From positions 1 to 54,907 of IMG/VR virus record IMGVR_UViG_3300025012_000108: a stretch of 54,907 nucleotides of DNA; one strand, 5' to 3'. Below the pieces are notes generated by a model. The model was not told the origin of the DNA, did no database searches, and worked only from the letters and a program-made list of their open reading frames with translations. Numbering within the stretch: position 1 is the stretch's first letter; every line of letters begins with the position of its first letter. Shown here one piece after another: positions 1-54,907 of this stretch. The stretch comes from a virus. The position numbers and the translations under genes are program-made.

Positions 1-43
1 CCTATCATGGTGCCATTGGCGGCGGCATTGGCACCATGATAGG
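1..43. other. Inverted snap-back at contig start
   Basis: Bases 1-14 are the exact reverse complement of bases 30-43. Bases 1-11 do not match the sequence that precedes the same segment at the other end of the window (54771-54781), whereas bases 12 onward match perfectly. The first 11 bases are therefore probably a foldback or assembly artefact and not phage sequence. Confidence 0.75.
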
Positions 44-137
44 CATCATTGAGCACCCCGCAGTTGCCCCCCGTTTGGCAATGGCGCTTTACAAGGCCAG
101 CAAAGGCAAAATGACCATGCCGCAGGCTAGGGCATCG
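12..137. repeat. Terminal direct repeat, left copy
   Basis: These 126 bases are identical to 54782-54907. The repeat lies inside a coding region whose frame is preserved across the join, so it looks like the overlap left when a circular or circularly permuted genome is written linearly. A true short terminal repeat cannot be excluded from sequence alone. Confidence 0.9.
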
Positions 138-3221: not shown

Positions 3222-3263
3222 TCCCTTAACCGTTTGTCGGAGAACACCGGCCACGGAGGACAC

Positions 3264-6200
3264 ATGAAACGTTTCTGTATCTATGCCGCACTTGTCTTGT
3301 TTGTCGCTTTCCTCACCGCCCAAATGATCTACGGAGCGGCGACTCCCATTGTGCCTATCGCCACCGCCACCCGCGCAGGCATCGTCAAAGGTGGAGGAGT
3401 AGGCATCGAGATTGAGGCAGACGGCACTATCAACGCTACAGGGGAAACTACGGCGGGGATATCGCCGGAAGTCTTTGCAGCGTATACCGGAGTAGGCGGG
3501 GGACGCGTTACTCAGGCGCAGCTTTCCAGCGCGGTAGGCCCAGCGGGGCAAGACGGCGCGGCAGCGACTATCGCAATTGGTACCACCACAACGGGCGCGG
3601 CGGGGAGTTCGGCGAACGTTAACAACACCGGAACCACCAATGCTGCGATACTTAACTTCACCATTCCCCGAGGCGCGACCGGTGCCACAGGCGCAACCGG
3701 TCCTCAAGGGCCGACCGGTGCCACAGGGCCACAGGGCACCGCTGGCGGCTCGATGGCATGGCGTGGTGTGTGGGAGGAGTTGGTTGAATACTACGCCAAC
3801 GACGCCGTATCCTACGGCACCCCTGCATCAACCTACATCGCTATTGAAACATCTACCGGTGCCGCTCCGGACTCAAGCCCCACATATTGGAGCCTCAGCG
3901 CGGAGCATGGGGCAACTGGGGCAACTGGTGCAACAGGGTCTGAAGGGCCGCAGGGGCCGCAAGGATTTCAAGGCTACTCCGGGGCGCAGGGACCACAAGG
4001 GCCACAAGGTGAGACCGGCGCGACCGGCGCGGCCGGGCCAGCGGGTTTGGACGGGGGCACTCTCGTGTTCAAGGGGGCGTGGAGCGCATTTGTCAACTAC
4101 TCCACCCTTGACTCCGTGACCTACAACGGGTCTAGCTTTGCGGCTAAGTTGCCATCCCTCAACCTCCCCCCGTGGATACCGCCAGCTAGCCCGACCACGC
4201 CGCAGAATGACACATGGCAGATGCAAGCGCAGCGTGGGTCTGATGGTTCGACCGGGGCGACGGGGGCCACCGGGGCGACGGGACCAGCAGGGACGACAGA
4301 CCATGTTGCTTTATCCAATCTCGATTACGAGGGCAGTGGGCACACGGGGTTTGAACCCGCCGACGCCACCATCATCAAATCTGGCGAGCTCTCTGCCGAG
4401 ACCGACGACCCCGCGACAGACGTGGCGGCTAGCGTTGCCGGGGTCAAAGCGGTGCAGGACGCGGTGGACGGGCTGGCCGTTAGCCCGACAAAATACATGG
4501 ACGGGCAGAGCGGCAGGAACACGCTGGCGGCATGGGTAGCCGACCCTACAATTGATGTGACCGCCGCGCTGCAAGCCGCACTGAACAGCGCTAAAAGGGT
4601 AGTTCTGGACAACTCGAAGAAATACGTGATTGAGTCAGCAGACCTGACTATCCCCAACTATGCCGCGCTGGTCGGCGGCTATGAGCACGTATCCAATTCT
4701 AGTAAGAACTTCACAACAATTGGCTCGGCGCTCTACCTGAAGAACGGCAAGCGCATCATTATGAAAAACGGGGCACAGTTGAAGGGCGTACTGGTGCTGC
4801 GAGGCGACATCGCCGGGCTGATTAACAATGGAGATACTGATTTTGCCGGAACTGCGATTGTGTCAGACCACGCAGACAATTACATAGGATACAACGCAAT
4901 CATAGGGTTTGAGTACGGTATTTGGAACGACGGCTTGCAGGGTGGTGAGCCGTACAACCGGCCCAGAGCCACCATCGAAAACAACATCATCGACTGCAAA
5001 AACGGGATTGTGCTCGCGGACAGCGGCGATACCGCCCGGATCAAAGGGAACCACATCTGGCCGTTTACCAGCAATGTGTCCAACGGATACGCCTACCACA
5101 TGCGGAGCGGGTACGGGATCAGGCTCTCCAATGTTTATGACTGGGCGCAACTCAGCGACAACGTGGTATACGGATTTGCTGTTGGCTACTCCTTTCACAA
5201 CGTAAACTCTGTGTCCTCATTGCGAGATGGATGCGATGCGCCTAGTTACTCGGAGTTGGCCGGAGCCAGAACAACTATAGGCATGGAGATCACCGGGACC
5301 TCGACAGAGGTTATGCTGGTTGCTCCACAAATAGCCTCGCAAGACCGGGCTATTGTTGTGAACACCTCCCCTGCCGGCAAAACTACAATGATTGATATGC
5401 CCGCTCTATGGGCAAACAACACGAACAACATTCACGTGCTGGGCGGCAACACCGATATATCTGGCGGGGTGATTAGAGGGACGACCATTGAAGGCGCTTT
5501 ACCCAACGGTATAGTTGTTGACAATGCAGCATCGATAGTCAGGTACAGCGGGACCCGGTTTATCAGCCTCCTCAATGAGACGGTCCAGACGGCGGGGGTC
5601 ATAGATTCGGTTCTGTCCTCTGAGTTCAAGTCCCGGCTCGTTGGGGGTGAAGGTCAAGCATACCTCACCGGGGGGGACTCTTCTTCTGACAGTGCCAAAC
5701 TATATCTCGGTAACGGCGCGGACGAATCGGCGTCCCACATAATGTATACCGGCAGTTCGGGCACGCTGAAGGCCGTTGTAGGCTCTAAAGAGGGCTGGCG
5801 CGTCAGCACTGCTGGCACTGGCATAGGAACCGCGTCAATACGTGCAAACCTGCACAGTGTAGGCACCACCATCTTAGGGACCGGAACAGCCGCATTAGCT
5901 GACACGCTCATGGACGACAACGCAGGGCCGCAGATCAATCCTTATCTGGACGCGTCAGGCAATAAACTGAAGTTCAAAGTCATTTATGACGGAACCGCTG
6001 GTGACACCGGGCGCACCGTGCAGACCGGCGAAATACCTCTAGGCCAGACATTCGGCACCGCCGCCTTCACCCCCTCCTCGGATTATGCCCCTGCATCGAT
6101 TGTGGCGACAGCAGAGAGCGCGTTGCAGCCGACTGGCAGCGGAGCGGGGCTGACGGGGATCACGGCGGCACAGGTGGGGGCGGTGGCGACCGTTAATGTG

Positions 6201-8732
6201 GTTGCTACCATGGATGGAACAACGGACGCCTCGGCAATAGTCCAAGCAGCGGTGAACTCGCTATCAGCGACGGGTGGTGTGGTGACCATCCCTGTGGGGA
6301 AAATCAAATTCTCCAACGTGACGCTTCCGGCAGGGGTCGTCCTGCAAGGGACTGGTGGAAAAAGTACAACACTTGACAGGGGTACGTGGGTCTATGTCAC
6401 TGATACGACGGACAATGCCATTAAGATGGGATCTAGCACACAGATAAAAGGATTGAACTTCTGGTATCCAAGCCAGACTAAAACATCATCTACGCTCACC
6501 ACATATCCAGCAACAATTAAAGTCAATAACTATTCTGTCAACATGGACGTACGGGATTGCAACTTCGGTAATGCCTACCACGCCATTGACGCTGAAAACA
6601 CGGCAGCGGCAGCTCACGCATCGCTAACCGTGGCTGATGTCACAGGGTTTCCACTGGCACTCGGTATCACTGATGACAACAGCGTGGACGTGGATCGTTT
6701 TACCAACGTTCACTGGAACCCCGCCGCAATGCCGGGATATTACTCAGGGGATTACAACGACACGTTTCTGGCTGGCGTATCATCAACTGCCGTTGGAATG
6801 AGAGTTAAAAAAGTCGATTGGCCCATCATTACCGGCTATTTTGCCTACGGCTACGCCAAGGGGTTGCAATTTACCAATAATGGCGACAGTTTGGGAGTTG
6901 ACACACCAATCGTCACAGGGGGTGGGCTGGACTCTTGCCGAATCGGGGTTGACATATCAGGCGCTGCAAGGGGTGTCCAGCTCCAAAATGTCCCGGTGAC
7001 TGCCTGGGACTGGAAAGATGCCACTTTTAAAACTGGTGTGGCTGTCAATGCCGATACGACCGGAGATATTTCAGTTGATGGTATGAGCGTTTGGGGTCCG
7101 ACAAGCAAAGCGTTCAATATTGTGAACGCTGGGAAGGTAGTGTTTAACGACCTAAAAATCCGAGATTACGGGGCATACGCAACATCGGCCAACCCGTTTG
7201 GTACTGTCGGGACCGTCACCAGCTTCCGGCTCAACGGCGGGTTTGCAGATGGACTCAGCCGAAATTATGCTAGGGGTCTGGATATTTCCAGCACGGCAGA
7301 CAATGTGGAGATTACCGGATTCACATTCAAAGATATTGGGGCAACACCGCAATACCCGATATCGATAGCTGACGGTGCCGATCGCATTAACATTCACGAC
7401 AACAAATATATCAACGTCGCGGCCATCTCGGATAGCTCCACGACCGCTAATAAATCCATCATCCTCGGCACCGTCACAGCCATAGGCGCAACCCCGAGCG
7501 ACAACAGTATCCCCACGGAAAAAGCTGTCGATGACGCTATCACGGCTGCAGTTCTAGGCGGTGGTTCGATGATTTGGCCTTCAGGTGGTGCCGGTGTACC
7601 TAATTACAATGGCTCCTCTGCTTGGGGTGCATCTTATGGCGCCGCATCACCGATCCCCGCTAATTTTGTCGCGGGGAAAATAGACCAGGCGGCTACAGCT
7701 ACCCAGTCCATAACTTACAGCGATGCACTGACTACCGGCGCTCCTGCTGTATTAACGCTGAAACATGCAACATCTGCAACCGCCGCTAACAACATCGGAA
7801 CCCAAATAGGGTTTTTCTCCCAGAATGCGGCAGGGACACAAATTAATTCAGCGGCGATAATCTCCCGATTACTTGATGCTACCGCGAATACAGGAGATTT
7901 CGAGTTTTATGCTAATGATGGTTCGGGTGTTAAGAAAACAATGCAACTGGATGGCGTAGGGAATCTAACCGTGCTTGGCCCTTCACCTACAATAACTGCT
8001 ACCGGTGCAAACTCAGGGTTAACCTTGAACCACACAGGTCAGGGTACTCTTCGCATGTACAACACCAGTTACGGCACAGATCAAAAATATTTAGAATGGT
8101 TACAGAGCGCTGGCAAGATGGAAATGCGCTTTGTCAATGATGCGTATTCTGCGGCATCAAATATCATGGAGGCGAACAGAAATTCAGGGGCGCACACAGT
8201 TAAAAATGTGTCTTTTCCAGTGGGGGCGGTCTGCATTGGCAGTAATACCTGTGATGGCAATGGCAACCTTAGCGTGAGCGGAACGATTTCATCTGGCTCC
8301 ACTGGCACATTCAGCGAGGCGGTGACAGCCGACAGTTTCTTAGCCACTGGTGCCGGTTTTGGACTCAATCAGGGCAACACTACCGGCAGTGCAATACCTG
8401 GCGGCACAATCGTTTCGCAAAGCGGGACAGTAGACTATGAGATAGCAGTTGCCAGCGCAAATGCCGCTGATAGGGTCGGGATTGTCAAAGACAATATCGC
8501 CACATCGACCGTAGGCCCGGTGATAGTCTCTGGAAATGTCGGGGTACTGCTCAAGAACTCCACGGCATGCACTAGAGGTCAGTATGTCTCGGTGTCATCT
8601 GACACGGCTGGTAGGGCAACGTGCAGTAGCTCCGCACCCGCAGACGCTGCCGCAGTGCTGCGGTTTATCGGGGTAGCGCAGCAATCTGTGAGCAGTGGAA
8701 CTGATGTTAGGGTTGTTACCAGACTGAGATAA
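3264..8732 (+). CDS. Giant modular tail fibre with collagen-like repeats, 1822 aa
   Basis: The start at 3264 is set by GGAGGA, six bases upstream. Order of parts: a signal-like hydrophobic N-terminus (residues 1-24); a short adaptor; three Gly-X-Y collagen-like tracts (about residues 135-160, 220-270 and 325-350) rich in GAT and GPQ triplets; between them two short aromatic modules with W-x5-Y...D-V-x-Y and a late W, resembling carbohydrate-binding module 5/12; a linker; two beta-helix regions (about 440-800 and 980-1400); and a C-terminal domain ending VVTRLR that resembles fibre or decoration beta-barrels. Collagen-like tracts drive trimerisation in known phage fibres. The protein is probably the main receptor-binding fibre; the host receptor is unknown. 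Confidence 0.8.
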   Translation: MKRFCIYAALVLFVAFLTAQMIYGAATPIVPIATATRAGIVKGGGVGIEIEADGTINATGETTAGISPEVFAAYTGVGGGRVTQAQLSSAVGPAGQDGAAATIAIGTTTTGAAGSSANVNNTGTTNAAILNFTIPRGATGATGATGPQGPTGATGPQGTAGGSMAWRGVWEELVEYYANDAVSYGTPASTYIAIETSTGAAPDSSPTYWSLSAEHGATGATGATGSEGPQGPQGFQGYSGAQGPQGPQGETGATGAAGPAGLDGGTLVFKGAWSAFVNYSTLDSVTYNGSSFAAKLPSLNLPPWIPPASPTTPQNDTWQMQAQRGSDGSTGATGATGATGPAGTTDHVALSNLDYEGSGHTGFEPADATIIKSGELSAETDDPATDVAASVAGVKAVQDAVDGLAVSPTKYMDGQSGRNTLAAWVADPTIDVTAALQAALNSAKRVVLDNSKKYVIESADLTIPNYAALVGGYEHVSNSSKNFTTIGSALYLKNGKRIIMKNGAQLKGVLVLRGDIAGLINNGDTDFAGTAIVSDHADNYIGYNAIIGFEYGIWNDGLQGGEPYNRPRATIENNIIDCKNGIVLADSGDTARIKGNHIWPFTSNVSNGYAYHMRSGYGIRLSNVYDWAQLSDNVVYGFAVGYSFHNVNSVSSLRDGCDAPSYSELAGARTTIGMEITGTSTEVMLVAPQIASQDRAIVVNTSPAGKTTMIDMPALWANNTNNIHVLGGNTDISGGVIRGTTIEGALPNGIVVDNAASIVRYSGTRFISLLNETVQTAGVIDSVLSSEFKSRLVGGEGQAYLTGGDSSSDSAKLYLGNGADESASHIMYTGSSGTLKAVVGSKEGWRVSTAGTGIGTASIRANLHSVGTTILGTGTAALADTLMDDNAGPQINPYLDASGNKLKFKVIYDGTAGDTGRTVQTGEIPLGQTFGTAAFTPSSDYAPASIVATAESALQPTGSGAGLTGITAAQVGAVATVNVVATMDGTTDASAIVQAAVNSLSATGGVVTIPVGKIKFSNVTLPAGVVLQGTGGKSTTLDRGTWVYVTDTTDNAIKMGSSTQIKGLNFWYPSQTKTSSTLTTYPATIKVNNYSVNMDVRDCNFGNAYHAIDAENTAAAAHASLTVADVTGFPLALGITDDNSVDVDRFTNVHWNPAAMPGYYSGDYNDTFLAGVSSTAVGMRVKKVDWPIITGYFAYGYAKGLQFTNNGDSLGVDTPIVTGGGLDSCRIGVDISGAARGVQLQNVPVTAWDWKDATFKTGVAVNADTTGDISVDGMSVWGPTSKAFNIVNAGKVVFNDLKIRDYGAYATSANPFGTVGTVTSFRLNGGFADGLSRNYARGLDISSTADNVEITGFTFKDIGATPQYPISIADGADRINIHDNKYINVAAISDSSTTANKSIILGTVTAIGATPSDNSIPTEKAVDDAITAAVLGGGSMIWPSGGAGVPNYNGSSAWGASYGAASPIPANFVAGKIDQAATATQSITYSDALTTGAPAVLTLKHATSATAANNIGTQIGFFSQNAAGTQINSAAIISRLLDATANTGDFEFYANDGSGVKKTMQLDGVGNLTVLGPSPTITATGANSGLTLNHTGQGTLRMYNTSYGTDQKYLEWLQSAGKMEMRFVNDAYSAASNIMEANRNSGAHTVKNVSFPVGAVCIGSNTCDGNGNLSVSGTISSGSTGTFSEAVTADSFLATGAGFGLNQGNTTGSAIPGGTIVSQSGTVDYEIAVASANAADRVGIVKDNIATSTVGPVIVSGNVGVLLKNSTACTRGQYVSVSSDTAGRATCSSSAPADAAAVLRFIGVAQQSVSSGTDVRVVTRLR

Positions 8733-17624: not shown

Positions 17625-17634
17625 GGAGGTGAAT

Positions 17635-18393
17635 GTGGTCAACCTAGTTTGCTACGGCGGCGGGACAAACAGCACCGCGCTATTGGTGGAAAAGGTCAAG
17701 CGGGGCGAACCTGTTGACATTATCCTGTTTGCCGATACTGGCGCGGAGAAGCCGCACACCTACGCCTACGTAGAGATGTTTTCTGCTTGGCTGGTAGAGA
17801 GGGGCTACCCCGCTATCCAGACTGTGAAAGCGGTAAACATGGCAGGAGAGGTTTACACCCTCACCCAAGATTGCATAGACCGCAGGGCGCTTCCTTCGCT
17901 GGCCTATGGCTTTAAGACGTGTTCCCTGCGCTGGAAGTTGGCACCCCAAGAAAAGTTTCTCAACAACTTCGACCTGTGCAAAGTGGAATGGAAAGCGGGT
18001 CGGATGATTACTAAGCATGTTGGCTTTGATTGGGGTGAGTCTCACCGCGTCAAGGCTTACAGCGAAGATACCAAGTATGAAGTGACCTATCCCCTTGTTG
18101 ATTGGAGATGGGACCGCAAGCGCTGCGTAGAGGCGATCTTAGCCGCAGGGCTACCCCTCCCCGGCAAATCATCCTGTTTCTTCTGCCCATCCATGAAACC
18201 CCATGAGATAAAGGAACTTGAGCGGGATTACCCCGAACTTCTTCAACTCGCCCTTGAGATAGAGGCAAACGCCGAACTTCATAGCGTGGTTGGCTTGGGA
18301 CGGTCGTTCAGTTGGCGGGAGTTTCTAAAGCAAGGCAGCTTTGACTTTTGTGGCAACTCTATTGAGGCAGACTGTGGCTGCTATGACGGGTAG
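17635..18393 (+). CDS. PP-loop ATPase, PAPS-reductase-like (short type)
   Basis: The 252-residue product starts at GTG 17635, placed by GAGGAGG five bases before it. YGGGTNSTALL near the N-terminus is the PP-loop of the adenine-nucleotide alpha-hydrolase / PAPS reductase superfamily; FADTGAEKPHTY and FKTCSLRWK are further family signatures, and CFFCPSMK plus C-terminal CGCYDG give Cys pairs for a metal or cluster. Such phage enzymes activate a substrate with ATP; sulfur transfer to nucleic acid is one possibility, unproven. It differs from the larger family member at 25332. Confidence 0.8.
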   Translation: MVNLVCYGGGTNSTALLVEKVKRGEPVDIILFADTGAEKPHTYAYVEMFSAWLVERGYPAIQTVKAVNMAGEVYTLTQDCIDRRALPSLAYGFKTCSLRWKLAPQEKFLNNFDLCKVEWKAGRMITKHVGFDWGESHRVKAYSEDTKYEVTYPLVDWRWDRKRCVEAILAAGLPLPGKSSCFFCPSMKPHEIKELERDYPELLQLALEIEANAELHSVVGLGRSFSWREFLKQGSFDFCGNSIEADCGCYDG

Positions 18394-24910: not shown

Positions 24911-25332
24911 TGGAGCGCATATACCACACATGGGACAAGTGGGAGTGCTACCCGGCTGGGTTCTACGACAACAACCCGCCCAAGGGGATGACCAGGGACG
25001 ACGCGGAGGCTTTTTACCGCAGTTTCCTTGCCGATATCCCCCTCTTTGAATCCTGCATGGAGCGGGTGATAACCGAGTGGAAAAACTCTTGTGAACACTA
25101 TCTGACCAACGAGCGCATGAACCGGATAGCGTGGATGGGGCAGACTGCCGTTTGCATCCACGCTGGCATCCCTTCCAAGTTTCGGGGCGGCTACAACCTG
25201 CTGACAGAGAATCAACAAAAGGCGGCAGACGAAGCGGCATTGCGTTACATGAACAGGTGGTTTATTGCCAACGGGCATCCTGAAATGACAATGGAGCAAG
25301 CGCAATCACGGTCGGAGGTCAACCTTTACTGA
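24910..25332 (+). CDS. Conserved linker gene of the ParB/PAPS cassette, 140 aa
   Basis: Start overlaps the ParB stop by one base, and its stop overlaps the next start by one base, so three genes are tightly coupled. Conserved-looking stretches: YHTWDKWECYPAGFY, EWKNSCEHYLTNERMNRIAW and GQTAVCIHAGIPSKFRGGY. I recall similar proteins beside phage ParB/PAPS-reductase genes, but no function. It is soluble and helical, rich in Trp, Cys and His. Confidence 0.7.
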   Translation: MERIYHTWDKWECYPAGFYDNNPPKGMTRDDAEAFYRSFLADIPLFESCMERVITEWKNSCEHYLTNERMNRIAWMGQTAVCIHAGIPSKFRGGYNLLTENQQKAADEAALRYMNRWFIANGHPEMTMEQAQSRSEVNLY

Positions 25333-26573
25333 TGAAAACTAAAAACTACCTCGACATTGACGTTTTGACAGCGGCCAAGGCCCGAATAGCTTTTACCTTT
25401 GACAACTTTCAGCGGATTTTCGTTTCCTTTTCCGGGGGCAAAGACAGCACCGTAATGCTTCACCTTGTGGCCGAAGAGGCTATCAAACGAGGCCGCAAGT
25501 TTGCTGTGATGCTGATCGACTTTGAGGCTCAGTACAAGTACACATCGGATAACGCGCTTGCTTTGTTTGAACAGTACAGGGACCACATAGAACTGTACTG
25601 GATATGCCTACCGATGGCTCTCCGCAACGCAGTCAGTAACTTTGAACCCTCGTGGACCTGTTGGGAGCCTGGAAAGGAAAAGGATTGGGTGCGACCTTTG
25701 CCTGACTTCCCCGGTGTTATCTCCGATCCGGACTATTTCCCTTTTTTCTCCCCGCGCATGGAGTTTGAAGAGTTTATCATCCTCTTTGCGGAGTGGTACA
25801 GCCAAGGAGAGCCAACAGCGGCCTTTGTTGGCATCCGCGCCGACGAAAGCCTTAATCGCTTCCGTACCATTGCCATCCACGACAAAGAAACATTTCAAGG
25901 CAAGCGGTGGACAACCAAAGTCGTTGATGAGGCCTACAACATCTATCCGATTTACGACTGGAAAACTAGCGACATTTGGGCATACCATGCCAAGACCGGC
26001 AAGATCCATAACCGTATCTACGACCTGATGCACCAAGCTGGCGTCCCTCTTTCTCAACAGCGCCTTTGTCAACCTTACGGAGACGACCAACGGCGGGGCT
26101 TGTGGCTCTATCATATCCTTGAGCCGGAGACGTGGTACAAGGTTGTTTGTCGCGTCAATGGGGCCAATAGCGGTTCACTTTACATCAACGAAACCGGCAA
26201 CGTGAACGGCTACAACAAGATAAACAAGCCAGAGGGCCACACGTGGAAGAGCTTTTGCAACCTGCTTTTATCCACTATGCCCGAAGTCACCCGTAACCAT
26301 TACCTGAAACGCTTCAAGGTTTTTATTGCGGGCTGGAAGGGGAGAGGCTACATTGACGGCATCCCTGATGAAGCGCCAAAGGTGTTAGAGGACGCGCATT
26401 GGGCTCCTTCCTGGCGGCGGCTATGCAAGGTGCTGTTGCGGAACGATTGGTGGTGTAAAGGGCTCGGATTAACTCAGCCGAAAAGCGAAGCTTACGGAAA
26501 GTACCTGAAGATTAAGAAGGCCAAGAAGGGGGGCGCAGATGAAGCTGGTTCCGGTGTGCTATGTGACGATTGA
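25332..26573 (+). CDS. PAPS-reductase-like enzyme, IbrA/DUF3440 type
   Basis: A 413-residue protein with the PP-loop SFSGGKDSTVMLHL (about residues 31-44), then LIDFEAQYKYT, FVGIRADES and IYPIYDWKTSDIW, all typical of the PAPS reductase / DUF3440 family, of which IbrA is a member. The family uses ATP or a sulfonucleotide; chemistry for this branch is not settled. A role with the ParB-like partner in marking or regulating nucleic acid is inferred. TGATG coupling to the upstream gene; the next gene begins inside its 3' end. Confidence 0.88.
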   Translation: MKTKNYLDIDVLTAAKARIAFTFDNFQRIFVSFSGGKDSTVMLHLVAEEAIKRGRKFAVMLIDFEAQYKYTSDNALALFEQYRDHIELYWICLPMALRNAVSNFEPSWTCWEPGKEKDWVRPLPDFPGVISDPDYFPFFSPRMEFEEFIILFAEWYSQGEPTAAFVGIRADESLNRFRTIAIHDKETFQGKRWTTKVVDEAYNIYPIYDWKTSDIWAYHAKTGKIHNRIYDLMHQAGVPLSQQRLCQPYGDDQRRGLWLYHILEPETWYKVVCRVNGANSGSLYINETGNVNGYNKINKPEGHTWKSFCNLLLSTMPEVTRNHYLKRFKVFIAGWKGRGYIDGIPDEAPKVLEDAHWAPSWRRLCKVLLRNDWWCKGLGLTQPKSEAYGKYLKIKKAKKGGADEAGSGVLCDD

Positions 26574-47254: not shown

Positions 47255-47556
47255 TGGGCGCGACTATTCACAAATTGCCTACGTCGTTGGAGCGTGGCCC
47301 GCACAACACAGGAGAGGCCAAATGCGCAGCGTGTAAACACGAATGGGTAGCTGTGGCTCCCACTGGCACGGTATGGCTTGATTGTCCCAAATGCGAAACG
47401 TGCCACGGGCTGATGAAGGGTCCAGTTTACCCTGAAAATGCGCAATGGACCTGTAACTGTGGCTGCTATGTTTTCGTGATCAGCGACACCACCAACATTC
47501 TGTGCGCTGTGTGCGGAACTGTTCACGGCCAACAGTTTTTCCCGGAAGGCGACTAA
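47254..47556 (+). CDS. Zn-ribbon protein in tail module, 100 aa
   Basis: ATG overlaps the connector stop. CAACKHEW, CPKCETCHG, CNCGC and CAVCG provide two zinc sites in 100 residues. Similar Cys-rich small proteins are unusual between connector genes. The CETCH run is inside a zinc-ribbon context, so heme binding is not assumed. TAATG overlap with the next gene. Confidence 0.65.
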   Translation: MGATIHKLPTSLERGPHNTGEAKCAACKHEWVAVAPTGTVWLDCPKCETCHGLMKGPVYPENAQWTCNCGCYVFVISDTTNILCAVCGTVHGQQFFPEGD

Positions 47557-48995
47557 TGCCTAGAATCCCCCTCGTATTCGGCCAGATGGACCTAGAGAGC
47601 GACCAGACTAGCCGCCGAGATCAGGTGTTAGCTCACTTGATTAACGGCTTCCGTGTCGGCTCTTCCATCCACATGTGGCCCGACCGCGCCGAATACTGTG
47701 ACCTAGGGGAGAATGGCAACGTCTACGTGTGGCAGTCTACCTTGCATGGCGTCAAATACGCCGTGTGCGCCGGGAAACTGTTCAGGGTCGATGGTGAAGG
47801 GCAAAAAACAGAGATAGCAGGGCCGGTGCTCTCCCTGAACACCCCGCCGGCCTTCGCAGAGGACGCATACAACGTCTTTGTCGCCGCAGCCTCCCCCATC
47901 TACAAGATAACCGGAGACACGGGGGCAGCTATCGCAGGGGGGCAGGCACCGGTTATCGTTACCTCTCTGGCGTTCCTCTCAGGCTTCCTTGTTGCCAACG
48001 GTCAAGACCCCGCAGGGGGAGGGCTGGCCGGTGATTTTGCCTACTCTGACACGCAGGGGGAGGACGGCCCGACCTATGCCGTGTGGAGCTACGAGAACAA
48101 CGCCACCAAGCCCGACGCGCTGCAAGGGCTAATTGCCACGCCTGATGATTACCTGTTCGCCATTGGCACCGAGTCCGTTGACGTGTCCTATGTCTCGGGC
48201 AACGTGGAATCCCCCTTCAGCAGCAACAAGGCGCTTGCACAGCCCTTTGGCACCCCTGAGCGGCACACCATCGCCTACGACTCGCAATCCATCTTCTTCA
48301 TGGCTGTAATCCAGGGAAACCGGCAGATTGTACGCCTCGTTGGCGGCAGGACGCCGCAGATAATTGGCTTCCCGCTTGGCGTGCCGGTGCAGGATGCCGA
48401 CATTACCGGGGCGCGGGGCCACATGGTGGGCTACCGGGGCCAGACGTTTTACGTGCTGACCCTGCCCCAAGCCAACGTTACCATTGATGACCTGTTCTTC
48501 CCTTCCCTCACCCTTGCATTTAACGTGAGAGCAGAGGAATGGGCCATTTTGGGAGAATGGGACGCGGACCAGGGGCGGTATACGGCGGCAGTGGCGCAAT
48601 CCTTTGCCTATGACGGGGCAACGCGCTACATCGGCGGCAACGATGGCAAGGTGTACACGCTGAGCGACGGAGTAAGGGCAGATGAACCGCTGATGCTGCA
48701 TCGTTGGCGCAACGACGGACGGCTGGAATGGGGTGCTGCGCGGTCCCTCTCCCTAGGCGCTATTGGCGACAGGCGCACGCCGCTGAAATCCCGGCAGTGT
48801 GGCAGGTACTACAAGCGGCAGGATGAGTTCATTCTTGTGCAAGGCAACATGAGAACGGTGATCCGTCCCGGTTGGCGCACATGGGGCAAGCCGATAGATC
48901 AAAAGATCAGCAATGAGTATGGTTATGACGTGAAGCGCGGGGACAGCGGAGTGGTGTTCAACGAGGTGACGGAAGATATTAAGGTGGTGCGATGA
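47556..48995 (+). CDS. Tail hub / DNA stabilisation protein, P22 gp10-like
   Basis: A 479-residue beta-rich protein opening with PRIPLVFGQMDLESDQTSRR and NGFRVGSSIHMWP. Repeated blade-like strands (LFAIGTESVDVSYVSG, RQIVRLVGGRTPQIIGFPLG) fit the gp10 family that plugs the portal and holds tail parts. Start ATG 47556 overlaps the previous stop. Confidence 0.8.
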   Translation: MPRIPLVFGQMDLESDQTSRRDQVLAHLINGFRVGSSIHMWPDRAEYCDLGENGNVYVWQSTLHGVKYAVCAGKLFRVDGEGQKTEIAGPVLSLNTPPAFAEDAYNVFVAAASPIYKITGDTGAAIAGGQAPVIVTSLAFLSGFLVANGQDPAGGGLAGDFAYSDTQGEDGPTYAVWSYENNATKPDALQGLIATPDDYLFAIGTESVDVSYVSGNVESPFSSNKALAQPFGTPERHTIAYDSQSIFFMAVIQGNRQIVRLVGGRTPQIIGFPLGVPVQDADITGARGHMVGYRGQTFYVLTLPQANVTIDDLFFPSLTLAFNVRAEEWAILGEWDADQGRYTAAVAQSFAYDGATRYIGGNDGKVYTLSDGVRADEPLMLHRWRNDGRLEWGAARSLSLGAIGDRRTPLKSRQCGRYYKRQDEFILVQGNMRTVIRPGWRTWGKPIDQKISNEYGYDVKRGDSGVVFNEVTEDIKVVR

Positions 48996-50095
48996 CCCTC
49001 TCTTCTAGCCAAACGCCGAAATCGCCCCGTGAGCTGGAGCAGTTCTACCGGGATGTGGCTAAGATGCTCGGCAACCTTGCAGGCATCCCTTGGAACCTCA
49101 TCAGCAAGGCCGGGAGCCGTCTAGATGAAATCACCGTCCGCACTCACGACCTGTTGCAAGAGGTCAAGGGGTGGGCGACAGGTGCCGACACCGTTCAAGA
49201 CCGGCATATCAGCGATGCAGACGGCAAGGTGTGGCAAGACCACGTTGAGGTAACGGACGGTAACCCCCACGGCACCGACCACAGCCAGCTTGAAGCCATT
49301 GGCGAGCTCGACCCAACCAGCGCGGACGCGACCAAGGACAAGCACCTTTCCAACGCGCAGAGCAAGGTGTGGCAAGACCATACCGACGCAACGCAGAATG
49401 TCCACGGCATCGGCACAGGCAACAGCGTGGTAGGCACCGGGACGGCGCAGACCCTTACAAGCAAGAAGTTTGGCGACAGCATCACGCTACCAAAAACGGC
49501 TGGAACTGGCATCAAGATTGACACGGCATCGCCTGACTTCCCTTGGCGCGACCTGATAGGGCTGATTATTTACAAGGATGTGGGCGTAGGCTCCCCGGTA
49601 CTGACCACCTACCGAGGCAATGTGAGGGATGTTAACTTTGCCGCAGGCGACGATTACGACCTGAAATTCCACGTTGACCATGATTGGGTGCCGGGGAAGG
49701 ACTGTTTTATCCACATGCACTGGTCACATAACGGGACCGACGTAAGTGGTAGCCTGGTCATTAACTACTACGTCACTTATGCTAAGGGGCACAACCAAGC
49801 GCCGTTCCACGCAGAAAAGAACATTACGCAGACCATCGCCAGCCTGAGTATCGCGAACACCCCGCAGTATCAGGCGCGAATAGACGAAATTCAGCTTTCT
49901 TCCTCAGGCGGCAGCTCTACCACGATTGACACCGACCTGATAGAGCCGGACGGTTTAATCCTTATCCACTTTGATGTGACCACCATCCCAACTATCACGG
50001 GCGGTTCCGGCAAGCCGTTCATCCATTTCGTGGACGTCCATTGCCAGTCAACAGGCGTAGGGACCAAGCAGAAAGCACCGGACTTTTACACATAA
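48992..50095 (+). CDS. Tail/head fibre protein with repeated KVWQDH motifs
   Basis: A 367-residue protein. Residues 1-55 helical; about 60-140 hold two near repeats, DRHISDADGKVWQDHVE and DKHLSNAQSKVWQDHTD, separated by NPHGTDHSQL; about 150-367 form a beta-sandwich like receptor-binding domains. Likely a virion fibre or plug. ATGA overlap with the gp10-like gene. Confidence 0.65.
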   Translation: MTLSSSQTPKSPRELEQFYRDVAKMLGNLAGIPWNLISKAGSRLDEITVRTHDLLQEVKGWATGADTVQDRHISDADGKVWQDHVEVTDGNPHGTDHSQLEAIGELDPTSADATKDKHLSNAQSKVWQDHTDATQNVHGIGTGNSVVGTGTAQTLTSKKFGDSITLPKTAGTGIKIDTASPDFPWRDLIGLIIYKDVGVGSPVLTTYRGNVRDVNFAAGDDYDLKFHVDHDWVPGKDCFIHMHWSHNGTDVSGSLVINYYVTYAKGHNQAPFHAEKNITQTIASLSIANTPQYQARIDEIQLSSSGGSSTTIDTDLIEPDGLILIHFDVTTIPTITGGSGKPFIHFVDVHCQSTGVGTKQKAPDFYT

Positions 50096-50104
50096 GGACA
50101 ACCC

Positions 50105-51151
50105 ATGATACACACGCTTTCACTCTGTAGTGTTTGCTACAAGAAGATCCCGGCTAGGATCCACTTCGCGGACGGCATGGCAATCATGACCAAGGAGTGT
50201 GACGTTCACGGGCCGTTCACGGCGGTAGTGGAGAAGGACATCCAGCACGTTTCCAACTTCTATCACCGTGGCACGCTCGGCAACAATAACACCATCATCA
50301 TACACACGCACAACGATTGCAACATGGAGTGCCCCTGGTGTTACTACCCAATGGGCAAAGAGAAGATGCAGCCGTTTTCCTACTATCAAAGTCTGCTCGG
50401 CTTTCCCTACAATGGTTTCCGTCTGCTGTTTTCCGGGGGGGAACCTACGCTAAGGCCCGATTTCTTTGAGTTCCACCACGAAGCATATATCAGAGGGTGG
50501 GGGCCGTCCAGCATCACCAACATGATAAGGCTCGGGGATGATGACTTCTTTAAAGCGACCATGAATGAGGAGCACGTCACCGGGAACCTGTACCGCTTTG
50601 CTATGTCCATGCAGCACCCGAAGAACTACCCCGAAGCGGTGTTGCGGCAGAAGATCAGGGCCATAGAGAACATCGAAAGCAAAGGACTCAAGGCAATGTG
50701 CGCCATGTTTTCCATCCAGTCGCTTGACGAACTGGACTACATCCGCGAATTCTACGACCGCACCAAGCACACGTATACCATGCTCCGCATCCGCACCATG
50801 TTTGGCAATTGGGAGAACAAGGGGGCTGAGAAGCTGTTCCTTTCCGACTTGCACAAGGCGTTCATAGAGAAGTTTTCCGACCTCATGCCAACCCTTTCCG
50901 AGACGGTGGAAAAGTCCAACATGTACTGCCTGTATTTGGCAATGAAAGACGGGATGCAGGTTTCGCTGAGCAGCGCCCCTACGGTGGAAAACGTTGACTA
51001 CCATGTTTGCTCCCGGCCTGTTTTCATGCTGGCAATGGACGGCAGATGCTATTCTGTCCCGCTAGCTCAAATAGCCAACGAAGGGTTTATGAAAGGATGG
51101 CATTCGGGTTTCAGGCTCCAAGGAGGTGCAACATGTGGGCAGCCGCAGTAG
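50105..51151 (+). CDS. Radical SAM enzyme in virion gene cluster
   Basis: A 348-residue protein; AAGGAC before ATG. The N-terminal SVCYKKIPARIHFADGMAIM..ECDVHGPF is a rubredoxin-like Cys/His knuckle seen in MJ0619/Tes-type radical SAM enzymes. Cys72, Cys76 and Cys79 (NDCNMECPWC) form the CxxxCxxC that holds the [4Fe-4S] cluster and SAM; LLFSGGEPTL is the SAM-binding GGE motif. The C-terminus has CSRPVFMLAMDGRCY, like a reduced SPASM region. Its target is unknown; a neighbouring virion protein, peptide or lipid is possible. The next small gene starts inside its last codons. Confidence 0.88.
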   Translation: MIHTLSLCSVCYKKIPARIHFADGMAIMTKECDVHGPFTAVVEKDIQHVSNFYHRGTLGNNNTIIIHTHNDCNMECPWCYYPMGKEKMQPFSYYQSLLGFPYNGFRLLFSGGEPTLRPDFFEFHHEAYIRGWGPSSITNMIRLGDDDFFKATMNEEHVTGNLYRFAMSMQHPKNYPEAVLRQKIRAIENIESKGLKAMCAMFSIQSLDELDYIREFYDRTKHTYTMLRIRTMFGNWENKGAEKLFLSDLHKAFIEKFSDLMPTLSETVEKSNMYCLYLAMKDGMQVSLSSAPTVENVDYHVCSRPVFMLAMDGRCYSVPLAQIANEGFMKGWHSGFRLQGGATCGQPQ

Positions 51152-51291
51152 TAGCAGGGCCAGCAGTAATAGGCGCGGCAGCATCCAACATCCAAGTTTC
51201 TCTTTCACCCGCGCCAACAGTTGAAAGCAAAAGCATAGAAAAAGGCTGGAAGGACGGCGTTGAACTGGCAGGAGGTGCAACATGTGGGTAG
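51133..51291 (+). CDS. Hybrid 52-aa gene from partial tandem duplication
   Basis: ATG 51133 has GGAGG seven bases upstream, inside the radical-SAM gene end. The N-terminus (WAAAVVAGPAVIGAAASN) copies that of the next gene (WVAVGTVAAAAIGAGASAAASN); the C-terminus (QVSLSPAPTVE...KGWKDGVELAGGATCG) copies the end of the radical-SAM protein, minus about 29 residues. It is probably a decayed duplicate joining both neighbours. A peptide substrate for the radical-SAM enzyme is a second possibility. Confidence 0.65.
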   Translation: MWAAAVVAGPAVIGAAASNIQVSLSPAPTVESKSIEKGWKDGVELAGGATCG

Positions 51292-52148
51292 CAGTCGGGA
51301 CGGTAGCAGCAGCAGCCATCGGGGCCGGGGCAAGTGCGGCAGCATCCAACAGTGCAGCGAAGAAACAAGCGGCAGGGATTAAGGGTGCTCAAACAGATGC
51401 AAATCAATTGCAGTGGGATATGTATGATGACACGAAAAACCGGTTTCAGAAGTTTGAAGACCCGGCAGAAAGGGCATTAGCCACTCTCCAAAACGCTCTT
51501 TACGGCAGCAAATCCGAATACGTTGACCCGCGCTTTACTAAACTGGACGCAGGGGATTTGCAAAACCTTAACGCCGACTTGTTACGACAGAGCGGCAACG
51601 AGTATTTTGCCGGTAAAGACAATAATTTCCTGTTGCAGCACTTGGCAAACAACCCTTGGGACGCCAAATACAGCGCGGACAAGCCCTTTTACCGTGGGCC
51701 GGACGGGCAGATTACCGACAAACCCTCCATGCTCTCGGCGCAGTGGAAGCCGCAGGAGTCGGAAGGATTCAAGTATACCAAGAGCCGCACCCTTGAGGAT
51801 TTGGGCCGATCTCTCCGCATGATGGGGAGAGGGTCCGGCACCGTTGCAGCCAACGCCACCGGGCGCACCCTTGGCGACCTCAACGTACAGAACGAGGCCA
51901 CGCAGCGCAACGAGCTGTGGAACATGGTCAAAACCGGCCAGGGCGCAGCGGGTAGCATCGCCGGGGCGGGGCAGAACGCCGCGAACAACGTGGGCGGCAA
52001 CATCATGAACACCGGCAACAACCTCGCCAACATTGCGCAGAACAACGGGCAGACTCAGGCCAGCCTGTGGGCGGGCTTGGGCGGCACGGCAGCAAACGCC
52101 TACGGCACCTACCAGATGGGCAAGTACCTGAACGGCAAAACGGTATAA
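51282..52148 (+). CDS. Ejection-type internal virion protein, 288 aa
   Basis: ATG 51282 overlaps the 52-aa gene, with GGAGG upstream. N-terminal Ala/Gly-rich helix (AVGTVAAAAIGAGASAAASNSAAKK), a middle region with W and Y, and a C-terminal Asn/Gly-rich helix set with repeated AAN and GNN units. This looks like P22 gp7/T7 gp14-like DNA-ejection proteins. Probably inserted in the host envelope at infection. Confidence 0.65.
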   Translation: MWVAVGTVAAAAIGAGASAAASNSAAKKQAAGIKGAQTDANQLQWDMYDDTKNRFQKFEDPAERALATLQNALYGSKSEYVDPRFTKLDAGDLQNLNADLLRQSGNEYFAGKDNNFLLQHLANNPWDAKYSADKPFYRGPDGQITDKPSMLSAQWKPQESEGFKYTKSRTLEDLGRSLRMMGRGSGTVAANATGRTLGDLNVQNEATQRNELWNMVKTGQGAAGSIAGAGQNAANNVGGNIMNTGNNLANIAQNNGQTQASLWAGLGGTAANAYGTYQMGKYLNGKTV

Positions 52149-52157
52149 GGAGGTAGC

Positions 52158-53450
52158 ATGGCTTTCGATCCGTGGGCATCCACAAACCAGGGGCTATCCA
52201 ACCTCACCAACACGCTCGGCACTCTGGCGCAACTGAAGCGGCAAGACCAGCAGTATGCCGATGAAGCGCCGTTGCGCTCCCTTCAGATGCAGCAGGCACA
52301 GCAGGGCGTGGAGCAGCAGGGGCTTACCCTCGCCAACCTCAAGGGGCAGCAGGGGGCACTGACCGACCAATACGGCACCACAGGCCAGCCGGATGCACTG
52401 CCCCGCGCTATGTCATTTCAGGCCCAAGAAGAGCAGATGCAGAAGGAACAGGCCACAAAGCAGAAGGGTTTTGAAGTGTACCTCAACACCATCAAGGCGC
52501 TTGACGGCATGACCAACCTTGACGCGACCACCAAGACGGAGATTGGCAAGCACTTTCTGTCTCAGAACCCCGACTATGCCCCCTTTGCCAACAATCTGAA
52601 GTATGTTGACTCCAAGGGTGTCAAGGCCGCTCGGCAGTTCGGGGAAGGTGAACTAAAAGACCCCGCAACAGGCAAACCCCTCCCCGCAGGTTACTACGAG
52701 ACAGAGGGCGTATGGACCGGTGACGCCGCTAACCCCGTGAAACTGACCGCATACAAGCTTGTTCCCGAGAAGAAGGATGAGCATGAAACATGGGGCGACC
52801 CCTACCAAGACAACGTGGGTGGCAAAAAGGCCATGATGCAGAAGAGCAGCCGGGGGCAGGTCCGGTCTGTACTGGCGGACAACAGCACTACGGTAAAAGT
52901 GAGTGCGGGTGGCGGTCACGACACCATGCAGGGCGGCAAACCACAGGGCGGTAAGATCCTCCCCGCTGGACAGCTTGAGTCGATAGCCGACATGAAGCGC
53001 GTTAAGGATGTGCTTGCAGAGGCATCTGACCTGCTCAAAAGCGGCAAGATTGATACCGGCCCTGTGTCTGGCCGTTTGCAATCTCTCGGCTCCAAGGTGG
53101 GTCTTGCTTCTGACAACTTCGTGAACCTTCAACAGAAGATGCAGACCGCCGAGAACATCATGCTCAAACTCCGCTCCGGGGCCGCTGTTACAGAGAGCGA
53201 GTATCAGAGGTTCAAGAAGGAATTCCCTCGTACCAGCGACACCCCGGAAGTGCGGGATAGGAAGATGGCAAACGCCATTGGCTACGCCTCTACCCTTATG
53301 GACAGCAAAATGGACATCTACGAGGAAGGGGGTTACAGGGTGCCACAGAGCGTTAAGAGCGGTGGCAAGCCAGCAGGTAAGCCCGCGCAGAAGCAAGCCC
53401 AAGGCCAGACCAAGAAAGGCGGCAGGTTCACCATTATCGAGGTGAAGTAA
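52158..53450 (+). CDS. Gln-rich internal virion protein, 430 aa
   Basis: AAGGAGG before ATG. First 100 residues are Gln-rich coiled coil (LKRQDQQYADEAPLRSLQMQ); the middle is mixed; the C-terminal 130 residues are helical (KMQTAENIMLKLRSGAAVTE). Order and size fit the second ejection protein of podoviruses. Stop overlaps the next start (TAATG). Confidence 0.65.
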   Translation: MAFDPWASTNQGLSNLTNTLGTLAQLKRQDQQYADEAPLRSLQMQQAQQGVEQQGLTLANLKGQQGALTDQYGTTGQPDALPRAMSFQAQEEQMQKEQATKQKGFEVYLNTIKALDGMTNLDATTKTEIGKHFLSQNPDYAPFANNLKYVDSKGVKAARQFGEGELKDPATGKPLPAGYYETEGVWTGDAANPVKLTAYKLVPEKKDEHETWGDPYQDNVGGKKAMMQKSSRGQVRSVLADNSTTVKVSAGGGHDTMQGGKPQGGKILPAGQLESIADMKRVKDVLAEASDLLKSGKIDTGPVSGRLQSLGSKVGLASDNFVNLQQKMQTAENIMLKLRSGAAVTESEYQRFKKEFPRTSDTPEVRDRKMANAIGYASTLMDSKMDIYEEGGYRVPQSVKSGGKPAGKPAQKQAQGQTKKGGRFTIIEVK

Positions 53451-54907
53451 TGGCGCAGTATACCGTAAAGGACAACGCGACCAAAAAAACCATCACTTTT
53501 GATTGGGACGGTGACGGCCCCCCCACCGATGCCGACATGGTGGAGGTGTTTGCAGCAGCGAAGCAGACCCGCAGCGCCGACATTGTCAAGGGCGCGAAAA
53601 TGGACCTCGCCGAAGCCAGCGACTACGCCGCCAACCGCGCAGCTTTCGCGCAAGAGGGGGGCGTTAGCACCTTTGGCGGCAAGCAGGGGGGTGATACCCG
53701 CAAGATCAGTTACACCGATAGCGGCTACCGCCCCAACCAGCCAGCCAAGACGCTGAAGGAGTTGGCGCGTAACACTGTTCAAGACGTGGTGGAACTTCCC
53801 CTCATGCCGGTGCGGATGCTCAAGGATGTTGCCGACTCCCCCGACACAGGCCGCACGTTGGCGGAACTCGGCAAGGGGATAGTGCGGGGGCCGCTGGAGT
53901 ACATCCCCGGCGTAGGCAAAGCCTTGGGCGGTAGATCGGCAACGGAGGCATGGTCCACTAACCCCGGCTACGGGGCGATGACCTTGGCGGGTGTAGCGGC
54001 GGCAGGTAAGGCCATGAAAGGCAAGCCGTCAACATCCCCCGCTCCGGCCAAGTCCGGTGGCTTGGCTGAGAAGGCGGCTACCAAGCTTTACGACATGACA
54101 TTGAAGCAGGGCACCACGCTGAGGCCCGATATCCGTAGGCAGAACGTCAAGACCGGCCTTGAAGGTGGATACCTTCCAAACAGCAAGGGCGTTGATAAGC
54201 TGGCCGCTGATGTGTCCAAGGCAGAGGGGGCTATTGCATCAGGGATAGACGCGGGTGATGCTGCCGCCGTTCGTGGCACCCTTGACCGCGCCATTGCCAA
54301 CGTGGAGGCGTTGCGCGACCAAGCCAAGCGTTCTGCCAACCCCGAACAGAACTTGGCAAAGATTGATGCTGAACTTGAAAGACTCCGCGCCAACCCGATG
54401 CTTGAGGGTGACTATGTCAACCCCACCACCGGCGAAGTGGCTAAAACAATCCCTATCAGCGAAGTTCAGAAGATGAAGGTTGAGCAGGGCCGCGCTGTCA
54501 AGTACCAGCAGAAAACGGGTCAGGCCGTTGACCCCTTCCAAGCGTCTATTGACAAGGCCCGTATCAGGGGGCTTAAGGAAGAACTGGAAACGCAGCTTTT
54601 CGACGTGTTCCCCGAGTTGAAGCAGACCAACCAGAAGCTAGGGCAGATGTACCAGCTTCAGGACGTGCTGGAACGCGCAGCAAGCCGCATAGAGAACAAC
54701 CAAGGGATAGGCATTGGCTTACCAATCAAGGGCGGCGCAGGGGCCACTATTGGCGGCATGATTGGCGGGGCTCCCGGTGCGGCCATTGGCGGCGGCATTG
54801 GCACCATGATAGGCATCATTGAGCACCCCGCAGTTGCCCCCCGTTTGGCAATGGCGCTTTACAAGGCCAGCAAAGGCAAAATGACCATGCCGCAGGCTAG
54901 GGCATCG
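53450..54907 (+). CDS. Large ejection-type protein, N-terminal part (continues at 138)
   Basis: The frame is open to the window end and continues, after the 126-base overlap, to 743, giving about 687 residues. N-terminus: a small beta domain (YTVKDNATKKTITFDWDGDG) common at the start of phage transglycosylase or ejection proteins; then an amphipathic segment, a Gly/Ala-rich hydrophobic stretch (GAMTLAGVAAAGKAMKG), a long coiled coil, and a glycine-zipper hairpin near 54750-54830. The HExxH part lies beyond the join. Likely the largest ejection protein. Confidence 0.75.
   Translation, partial: MAQYTVKDNATKKTITFDWDGDGPPTDADMVEVFAAAKQTRSADIVKGAKMDLAEASDYAANRAAFAQEGGVSTFGGKQGGDTRKISYTDSGYRPNQPAKTLKELARNTVQDVVELPLMPVRMLKDVADSPDTGRTLAELGKGIVRGPLEYIPGVGKALGGRSATEAWSTNPGYGAMTLAGVAAAGKAMKGKPSTSPAPAKSGGLAEKAATKLYDMTLKQGTTLRPDIRRQNVKTGLEGGYLPNSKGVDKLAADVSKAEGAIASGIDAGDAAAVRGTLDRAIANVEALRDQAKRSANPEQNLAKIDAELERLRANPMLEGDYVNPTTGEVAKTIPISEVQKMKVEQGRAVKYQQKTGQAVDPFQASIDKARIRGLKEELETQLFDVFPELKQTNQKLGQMYQLQDVLERAASRIENNQGIGIGLPIKGGAGATIGGMIGGAPGAAIGGGIGTMIGIIEHPAVAPRLAMALYKASKGKMTMPQARAS
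54782..54907. repeat. Terminal direct repeat, right copy
   Basis: Identical to 12-137. Together with the open frame across it, this shows that the two window ends are adjacent in the genome. Confidence 0.9.

Follow-up and report, generated by a model that had tools for sequence, protein, structure and literature searches.

Gene Neighborhood of the Radical SAM Enzyme

The viral DNA analyzed here (the window, 54,907 nucleotides in full) encodes a 348-residue rubredoxin-type radical SAM enzyme that starts with ATG (50105–51151, + strand). Immediately 5' of it lies a tail-fiber-like gene (48992–50095, +), which is preceded by a gene for an Hc3-family head-closure protein (47502–48995, +; phrog_578, E = 1e-16). 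Downstream are a 52-residue open reading frame (ORF; 51133–51291, +), a gene for a 288-residue glycine-zipper DNA-ejection protein of the gp14/gp7-like type (51282–52148, +), and two genes for a second, gp15-like (52158–53450, +) and a third, gp16-like (53450–54907, +) ejection-module protein. The initial annotation had set the enzyme between a tail fiber gene and a series of ejection proteins, an order that overlooked the 52-residue ORF. On the downstream flank, the ejection gene is confirmed by its match to phrog_598 (E = 4.7e-10), and the upstream flank matches a tail fiber family weakly (phrog_38058, E = 0.01; 95% identical in the related phage L024). The 52158 and 53450 proteins, also taken for ejection proteins at first, have no PHROGs assignment (the latter weakly resembles phrog_788/594 and the former matches no family) and hold that role by position.

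The gp16-like gene does not end with the window but continues past the point where the circle closes, as far as about position 743. Because 126 identical base pairs occur at both ends of the window (12–137 and 54782–54907), the genome is a closed circle of ~54.8 kb and essentially complete; its IMG/VR label is linear. The portal (PF16510) and coat (PF13252) of the phage are of the P22 type. Bases 1–32 of the window are an inverted fold-back copy of neighboring sequence, an assembly or MDA artifact. As no promoter-like or terminator-like site is found on the + strand between 47100 and 52500, it is plausible, as had been proposed, that the enzyme and its neighbors form a single late operon.

Motifs, Domains, and Predicted Fold

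The enzyme contains the radical SAM [4Fe-4S] motif CNMECPWC (C72/C76/C79; 50318–50341, +), invariant in 22/22 family members, and the SAM-binding motif SGGEP (residues 110–114; 50432–50446, +), which occurs as SGGEP or TGGEP in all relatives. The radical SAM signature first noticed in this ORF, CX3CX2C followed by SGGEP, is thus confirmed, and the ORF is real: in 100,000 shuffled versions of the protein, CX3CX2C followed by GGEP at a distance of 20–45 residues never arose (CX3CX2C alone did so in 0.8%), and no other frame in the window has this combination. Taken alone, the Pfam radical SAM profile PF04055 stays under its cut-off (22.9 vs 29.5 bits). An AlphaFold model built on a ten-sequence alignment (pLDDT 81, pTM 0.81) contains a partial TIM barrel, and its Foldseek matches are radical SAM enzymes. 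Motif and predicted fold together place the protein in the radical SAM superfamily.

The N-terminal Cys/His knuckle described in the initial annotation corresponds to the Pfam zinc-ribbon/rubredoxin domain PF23545 (residues 3–43; 50111–50233, +; E = 4e-13, over the cut-off). Its rubredoxin-type ligands, C8-x2-C11-x20-C32-x2-H35, are invariant in 18/18 rubredoxin-type members. C199 (50699–50701, +), in barrel strand 196–204, is invariant in the 17 closest rubredoxin-type members and is a candidate active-site residue. A C-terminal signature, DGxxYxVPxAQxxNE (residues 312–326; 51038–51082, +), is largely common to a short radical SAM form discussed below.

Among characterized enzymes, the closest in fold is the archaeal tetraether synthase, Tes/GDGT-MAS (MJ0619, NF045702), in which an N-terminal rubredoxin-like domain is likewise followed by a radical SAM barrel; the GDGT-MAS structures 7tom and 7tol are the best fold matches (E = 6e-17 and 1e-17; TM 0.76 and 0.73, respectively), and the same entries (7TOL, 7TOM) are the best PDB sequence matches. 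The rubredoxin iron-site ligands of GDGT-MAS are C9x2C12x20C33x2H36, and this spacing, CX2CX20CX2H, is exactly equal in the window enzyme (PMC9433317). However, Tes is ~500 residues long, whereas the window enzyme has 348 and is encoded by a phage in an ejection operon. The N-terminal auxiliary [4Fe-4S] cluster of Tes (C73/C77/C80 plus His) is absent, the window enzyme having a single CX3CX2C, and so is the C-terminal one: C275, C302, and C315 vary among relatives. On the NCBIfam Tes profile the enzyme reaches 44.9 bits, where the cut-off is 450. The two missing clusters and this score rule out a Tes orthologue. Because both clusters are missing, we describe the enzyme as Tes-like but not Tes and, given its single CX3CX2C and lack of a conserved C-terminal Cys set, as a minimal protein of rubredoxin domain and radical SAM core.

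Other families fit less well. The top NCBIfam match is the TrsS radical SAM (seleno)protein (NF045646, E = 7.6e-17), which spans the rubredoxin domain and the start of the core; its 61 bits compare with a cut-off of 490, and its best stretch is residues 3–79, where the Tes match, likewise far under its cut-off, also mainly falls. Viperin/pVip (NF038283) was rejected at 36.2 vs 180 bits, and a PADLOC pVip match is limited to residues 64–146 of the core. The next-ranked fold matches are the RiPP radical SAM/SPASM maturases SuiB, SkfB, and EpeE. Their genes are likewise coupled to that of the substrate, but the substrate is a small precursor peptide, whereas the candidate here is a large virion protein, the adjacent gp14-like one; moreover, the Cys-rich auxiliary-cluster domain (SPASM/Twitch) has no counterpart in the window enzyme, in which a conserved C-terminal Cys set is absent.

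Distribution, Hosts, and Conservation

We scanned IMG/VR with the whole protein, its middle part, and its C-terminus, and found the family in many contigs. Besides the window phage, at least 15 further distinct phages, otherwise very different, encode a member. The initial annotation had held that absence from all related phages would suggest a recent, functionless insertion; the enzyme was looked for and is present in these 15 relatives, and such an insertion is excluded by its conservation, dN/dS, and recurrence. In the phage collection, the matches are distant radical SAM genes of Campylobacter phages in another context, and no close relative is present; these genes and an NrdG-like match in MT835493 were set aside as unrelated in context.

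A genome scan placed one family member in an uncultured Geobacteraceae metagenome-assembled genome (MAG). Among the cellular genomes searched (141 from the same order, 277 from the class, and 395 in a phylum sample), members occur in five genomes only, all of the same order as this MAG, which we infer to be Geobacterales, and all of them sit in phage or prophage gene clusters. The hosts are therefore probably anaerobic Geobacter-type bacteria, an assignment based on one Geobacteraceae-titled genome (L005) and on group membership. The initial suggestion that the location would suit an anaerobic or microaerobic host is, for an anaerobic one, well supported by this restriction to one order, to which the Geobacteraceae MAG belongs.

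A short subfamily lacks the rubredoxin domain (L018, L019, L020, and L026; L027 is the same as L018). It is homologous to the long form, as a short-form profile matches the long form of L005 (E = 1e-19), and a model of the short form likewise has the radical SAM fold. The profile match in L019 passes through stop codons; at L019:9435–10429, the short radical SAM gene and the gp14 gene both appear cut off at their junction, an apparent deletion or frameshift that may reflect either a pseudogene or the assembly.

Rubredoxin-type members are 45–90% identical to each other (97% in one near-duplicate pair) and about 20–26% identical to the short form. By comparison, the gp14 and gp15 proteins of the relatives are mostly below detection in alignment. 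Between the window and L004/L005, for example, the enzyme is 64–66% identical and Hc3 21–25%, and gp14 and gp15 do not match at all. Where dS is unsaturated, the dN/dS of the enzyme is 0.03–0.19, values that indicate purifying selection. Besides exchange between phages, slower evolution of the enzyme could account for part of its identity relative to the unalignable structural proteins; the direct sequence evidence for exchange lies in the L024 comparison and in the replacement between short and long forms, both described below.

Position Relative to the Ejection Gene

In 15/15 distinct relatives with downstream DNA, the start codon of a gp14-like gene lies −13 to +4 nucleotides from the stop codon of the enzyme (L024, L004, L005, L034, L037, L038, L040, L042, L043, L044, L045, L053, L018, L020, and L026). 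Left out downstream were L001, L041, and L050, which are truncated, and the fold-back assembly chimeras L052 and L042, except for the gp14 of the latter. The window has the same order of enzyme and ejection gene, with the 52-residue ORF in between, and in the window and several relatives the enzyme gene carries, within its own 3' end, a ribosome-binding site for the gene that follows. The link between enzyme and ejection module that had been read from the window alone is thus well supported.

The ejection proteins of the window, L005, L034, L037, L042, and L053 match phrog_598, and the gp14-like proteins of L026 and G089 match phrog_418, an ejection/internal-virion family. Unmatched gp14-like proteins were assigned by position together with a hydrophobic Gly/Ala N-terminus, and those of L004, L040, L045, and L020 are gp14-like by position only. 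Apart from Gly/Ala composition, no sequence motif is common to the 16 gp14-like proteins. In L018, L020, L026, and L043–L045, the gp14-like protein has an N-terminal extension of 20–25 residues before the hydrophobic segment (for example PGLYQS[ED]LYS.R.FFLTWEGIA), which phiV10 gp14 lacks. This extension was considered as a leader and rejected: it is leader-like, yet missing from other gp14 proteins linked to a radical SAM gene.

In the T7-like relatives L018 and L026, the enzyme gene interrupts the gp13|gp14 junction. Coliphage phiV10 has the same junction with nothing between the two genes and no radical SAM gene, and the order gp13-gp14-gp15-gp16 of P22 gp7/T7 gp14-type modules (epsilon15/phiV10) is also that of the T7-like relatives. 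An exception is found in L107/L108, where the enzyme follows gp14 and a GNAT gene and stands directly before gp15.

A Recombination Scar between Enzyme and Ejection Gene

The 52-residue ORF of the window is best read as the product of recombination. The ribosome-binding site and start AGGAGGTGCAACATG is present twice, once in the 3' end of the enzyme gene, where it serves this ORF (51121–51135, +), and again as the start site of the ejection gene (51270–51284, +). The ORF begins with a gp14-like start, MWAAAVVAGPAVIGAAAS, and continues with the tail of an enzyme allele that was there before; this tail reads QVSLSPAPTVES and then KSIEKGWKDGVELAGGATCG, the latter matching the C-terminal end of the L024 radical SAM protein, GIEKGWKDGFKLAGGATCG. 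Its composition, a stub of the gp14 N-terminus followed by what is left of the 3' end of that older radical SAM allele, marks it as the fossil of an enzyme allele replacement at this slot.

Comparison with L024 points to the same event. Hc3, its neighbor, and the fiber are 92–96% identical between the two phages (dS 0.3–0.55), whereas dS reaches 1.45 over the enzyme, remains elevated through roughly the first 120 gp14 residues, and then falls to 0.6–0.8. The diverged block thus comprises the enzyme and about the first 120 gp14 residues (dS ~1.0–2.4 where unsaturated, against 0.3–0.8 in the flanks). Joint exchange of the enzyme and the gp14 N-terminus is absent in the pairs L038/L040 and L044/L045, so that a general rule of joint exchange was rejected; the window and L024 record one event.

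Other Radical SAM Classes and Slots Lacking the Enzyme

Within one gp14 family (46–56% identical), the gene is preceded by the rubredoxin form in L043–L045 and by the short form in L020. A third class is represented by G008 (L067/L070), with the order GNAT, B12-binding radical SAM, gp14-like (phrog_418), and gp15-like; in L070 the B12-binding gene lies at the gp13|gp14 junction. This case came from looking upstream of gp14 genes and is subject to ascertainment, and the L067 B12-binding enzyme, when used as a query against viral sequences, gave no relatives. The B12-binding enzyme of L001, in contrast, has eleven close IMG/VR relatives (L079–L089; 56–66% identical). At L001:3459–5464, it adjoins a glycosyltransferase-like gene between capsid and connector genes.

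The three of these relatives that lie on large contigs (G659, G660, and G661) are accompanied by a rubredoxin-type enzyme. In G659/G660 it lies between a GNAT and gp15; in G661 its neighbor is a further B12-binding enzyme, an arrangement also seen in the prophage-like L017. In L109 (reverse complement, 4988–7086) and L017 (9076–11470), B12-binding and rubredoxin-type genes occur in tandem and are followed by a GNAT-like gene. The same operon of L017 encodes a 113-residue Cys-containing ORF, which could be a small substrate.

Gp14-like genes of the same families also occur without a radical SAM gene in the slot, in phiV10 and in L057, L059, L060, L061, L063, and L069, phages of the same order in which the slot holds GNATs or small proteins. 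Because of these loci, the enzyme is not obligatory for its gp14 type. GNAT-type proteins often fill the slot before gp14-like genes (L060, L061, L069, and L059), perhaps a general "modifier" slot. In L026, a C1 papain-type peptidase-like gene (7270–8001) lies between the gp13-like and radical SAM genes.

Proposed Role and Alternatives

The tie between this enzyme and a DNA-injection gene in diverse phages suggests a chemical modification, of a kind not yet recognized, in some component of the injection machinery. Based on the fold and motifs, the position, the purifying selection, the swapping of alleles together with the gp14 N-terminus, and the replacement of one radical SAM class by another, our tentative reading, to which we give a probability of roughly 45%, is that the enzyme modifies an ejection protein during assembly. 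The phage-specific enzyme would be expressed late, in translational coupling with the ejection module. In the anoxic host cytoplasm, the [4Fe-4S] cluster at C72/C76/C79 would split SAM to give a 5'-deoxyadenosyl radical, with the N-terminal rubredoxin-type iron site possibly aiding electron delivery or docking a partner. The radical would then take a hydrogen from an ejection-module protein during or shortly after its synthesis, most probably from the adjacent gp14-like channel protein, within its hydrophobic N-terminal portion rich in Gly and Ala, and the modification would matter for packaging or for passage through the host envelope.

Among the open-access papers searched, none describes a phage virion protein modified by a radical SAM enzyme, or a radical SAM gene associated with ejection or internal virion proteins or present in Geobacter prophages. 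At least 16 phages keep this conserved enzyme family locked to an ejection gene, and other radical SAM classes have been recruited to the slot; this points to a chemical step, so far unsuspected, in how the DNA-injection machinery is built. If this reading is correct, the reach of post-translational radical chemistry would include virus assembly, which would partly explain why phages of strict anaerobes have radical SAM genes.

Several observations speak against an ejection protein as substrate: gp14-like proteins without a slot enzyme, the gene order of L107/L108, the single joint-exchange event, and above all the pairing of a conserved enzyme with a variable gp14 that has no shared motif beyond its Gly/Ala composition. 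A substrate that is a small molecule or a conserved component of the host would account for this pairing no less well. The pairing is the best argument for the main rival, in our view somewhat unlikely, in which the gene is a "moron," an accessory gene in a permissive slot of the late operon; its enzyme would act on some conserved molecule of the host with no relation to ejection (a nucleotide, cofactor, tRNA, or defense signal), and the gene would keep its position by traveling with the recombinogenic start region of gp14. The scar records recombination at precisely that start, and the slot is variable in Geobacterales-type phages, holding GNATs, small proteins, or the C1-type peptidase of L026. 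Against this rival stand the lack of a promoter or terminator of its own, the nearly invariant translational coupling, and the presence of three different radical SAM classes at the same slot or module.

Modification of an ejection protein can also be framed more broadly, in a form that we consider unlikely: phages of anaerobic Geobacter-type bacteria would have a dedicated ejection-protein maturation carried out by rubredoxin, short, and B12-binding radical SAM classes, often beside GNAT acetyltransferases, and the membrane-channel proteins of the ejectosome would be modified as though they were giant RiPPs.

Improbable, in turn, is a Tes-like action on a lipid or hydrophobic envelope molecule, with the product used when ejection proteins cross the membrane or at host lysis. 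It is sustained solely by the Tes-like fold, that is, by GDGT-MAS as the nearest solved structure and the shared rubredoxin ligand spacing, and an anaerobic diderm host would suit it. Nevertheless, both Tes auxiliary clusters are absent, the C-terminal one being that to which the substrate carbon would bind in the mechanism put forward for Tes; the Tes profile score is a tenth of its cut-off; the short form occupies the same slot without a rubredoxin domain; and tailed phages have no membrane.

That the enzyme is itself packaged, ejected with the ejection proteins, and active early in the next host seems more improbable still. Its gene lies within the ejection block, coupling would give comparable expression, and strong conservation fits a host target, but Fe-S enzymes are oxygen-labile in free virions, and neither a packaging signal nor a fusion to an ejection protein was seen. 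We give almost no weight to the small-peptide substrate considered in the initial annotation, in the form of the 52-residue ORF as a RiPP-type precursor and the enzyme as its maturase: the ORF does lie directly 3' of the enzyme and overlaps its end, but in none of the 15 relatives with downstream DNA are the enzyme and gp14 separated by a comparable peptide, and recombination explains it better, residue by residue.

Other Features of the Window Genome

Elsewhere in the window, positions 3234–8732 encode an 1832-residue protein, probably a long tail fiber, whose GxTGPQG repeats resemble collagen. The early region contains PAPS-reductase-like genes at 25332–26573 (PF01507 and DUF3440) and 17629–18393.
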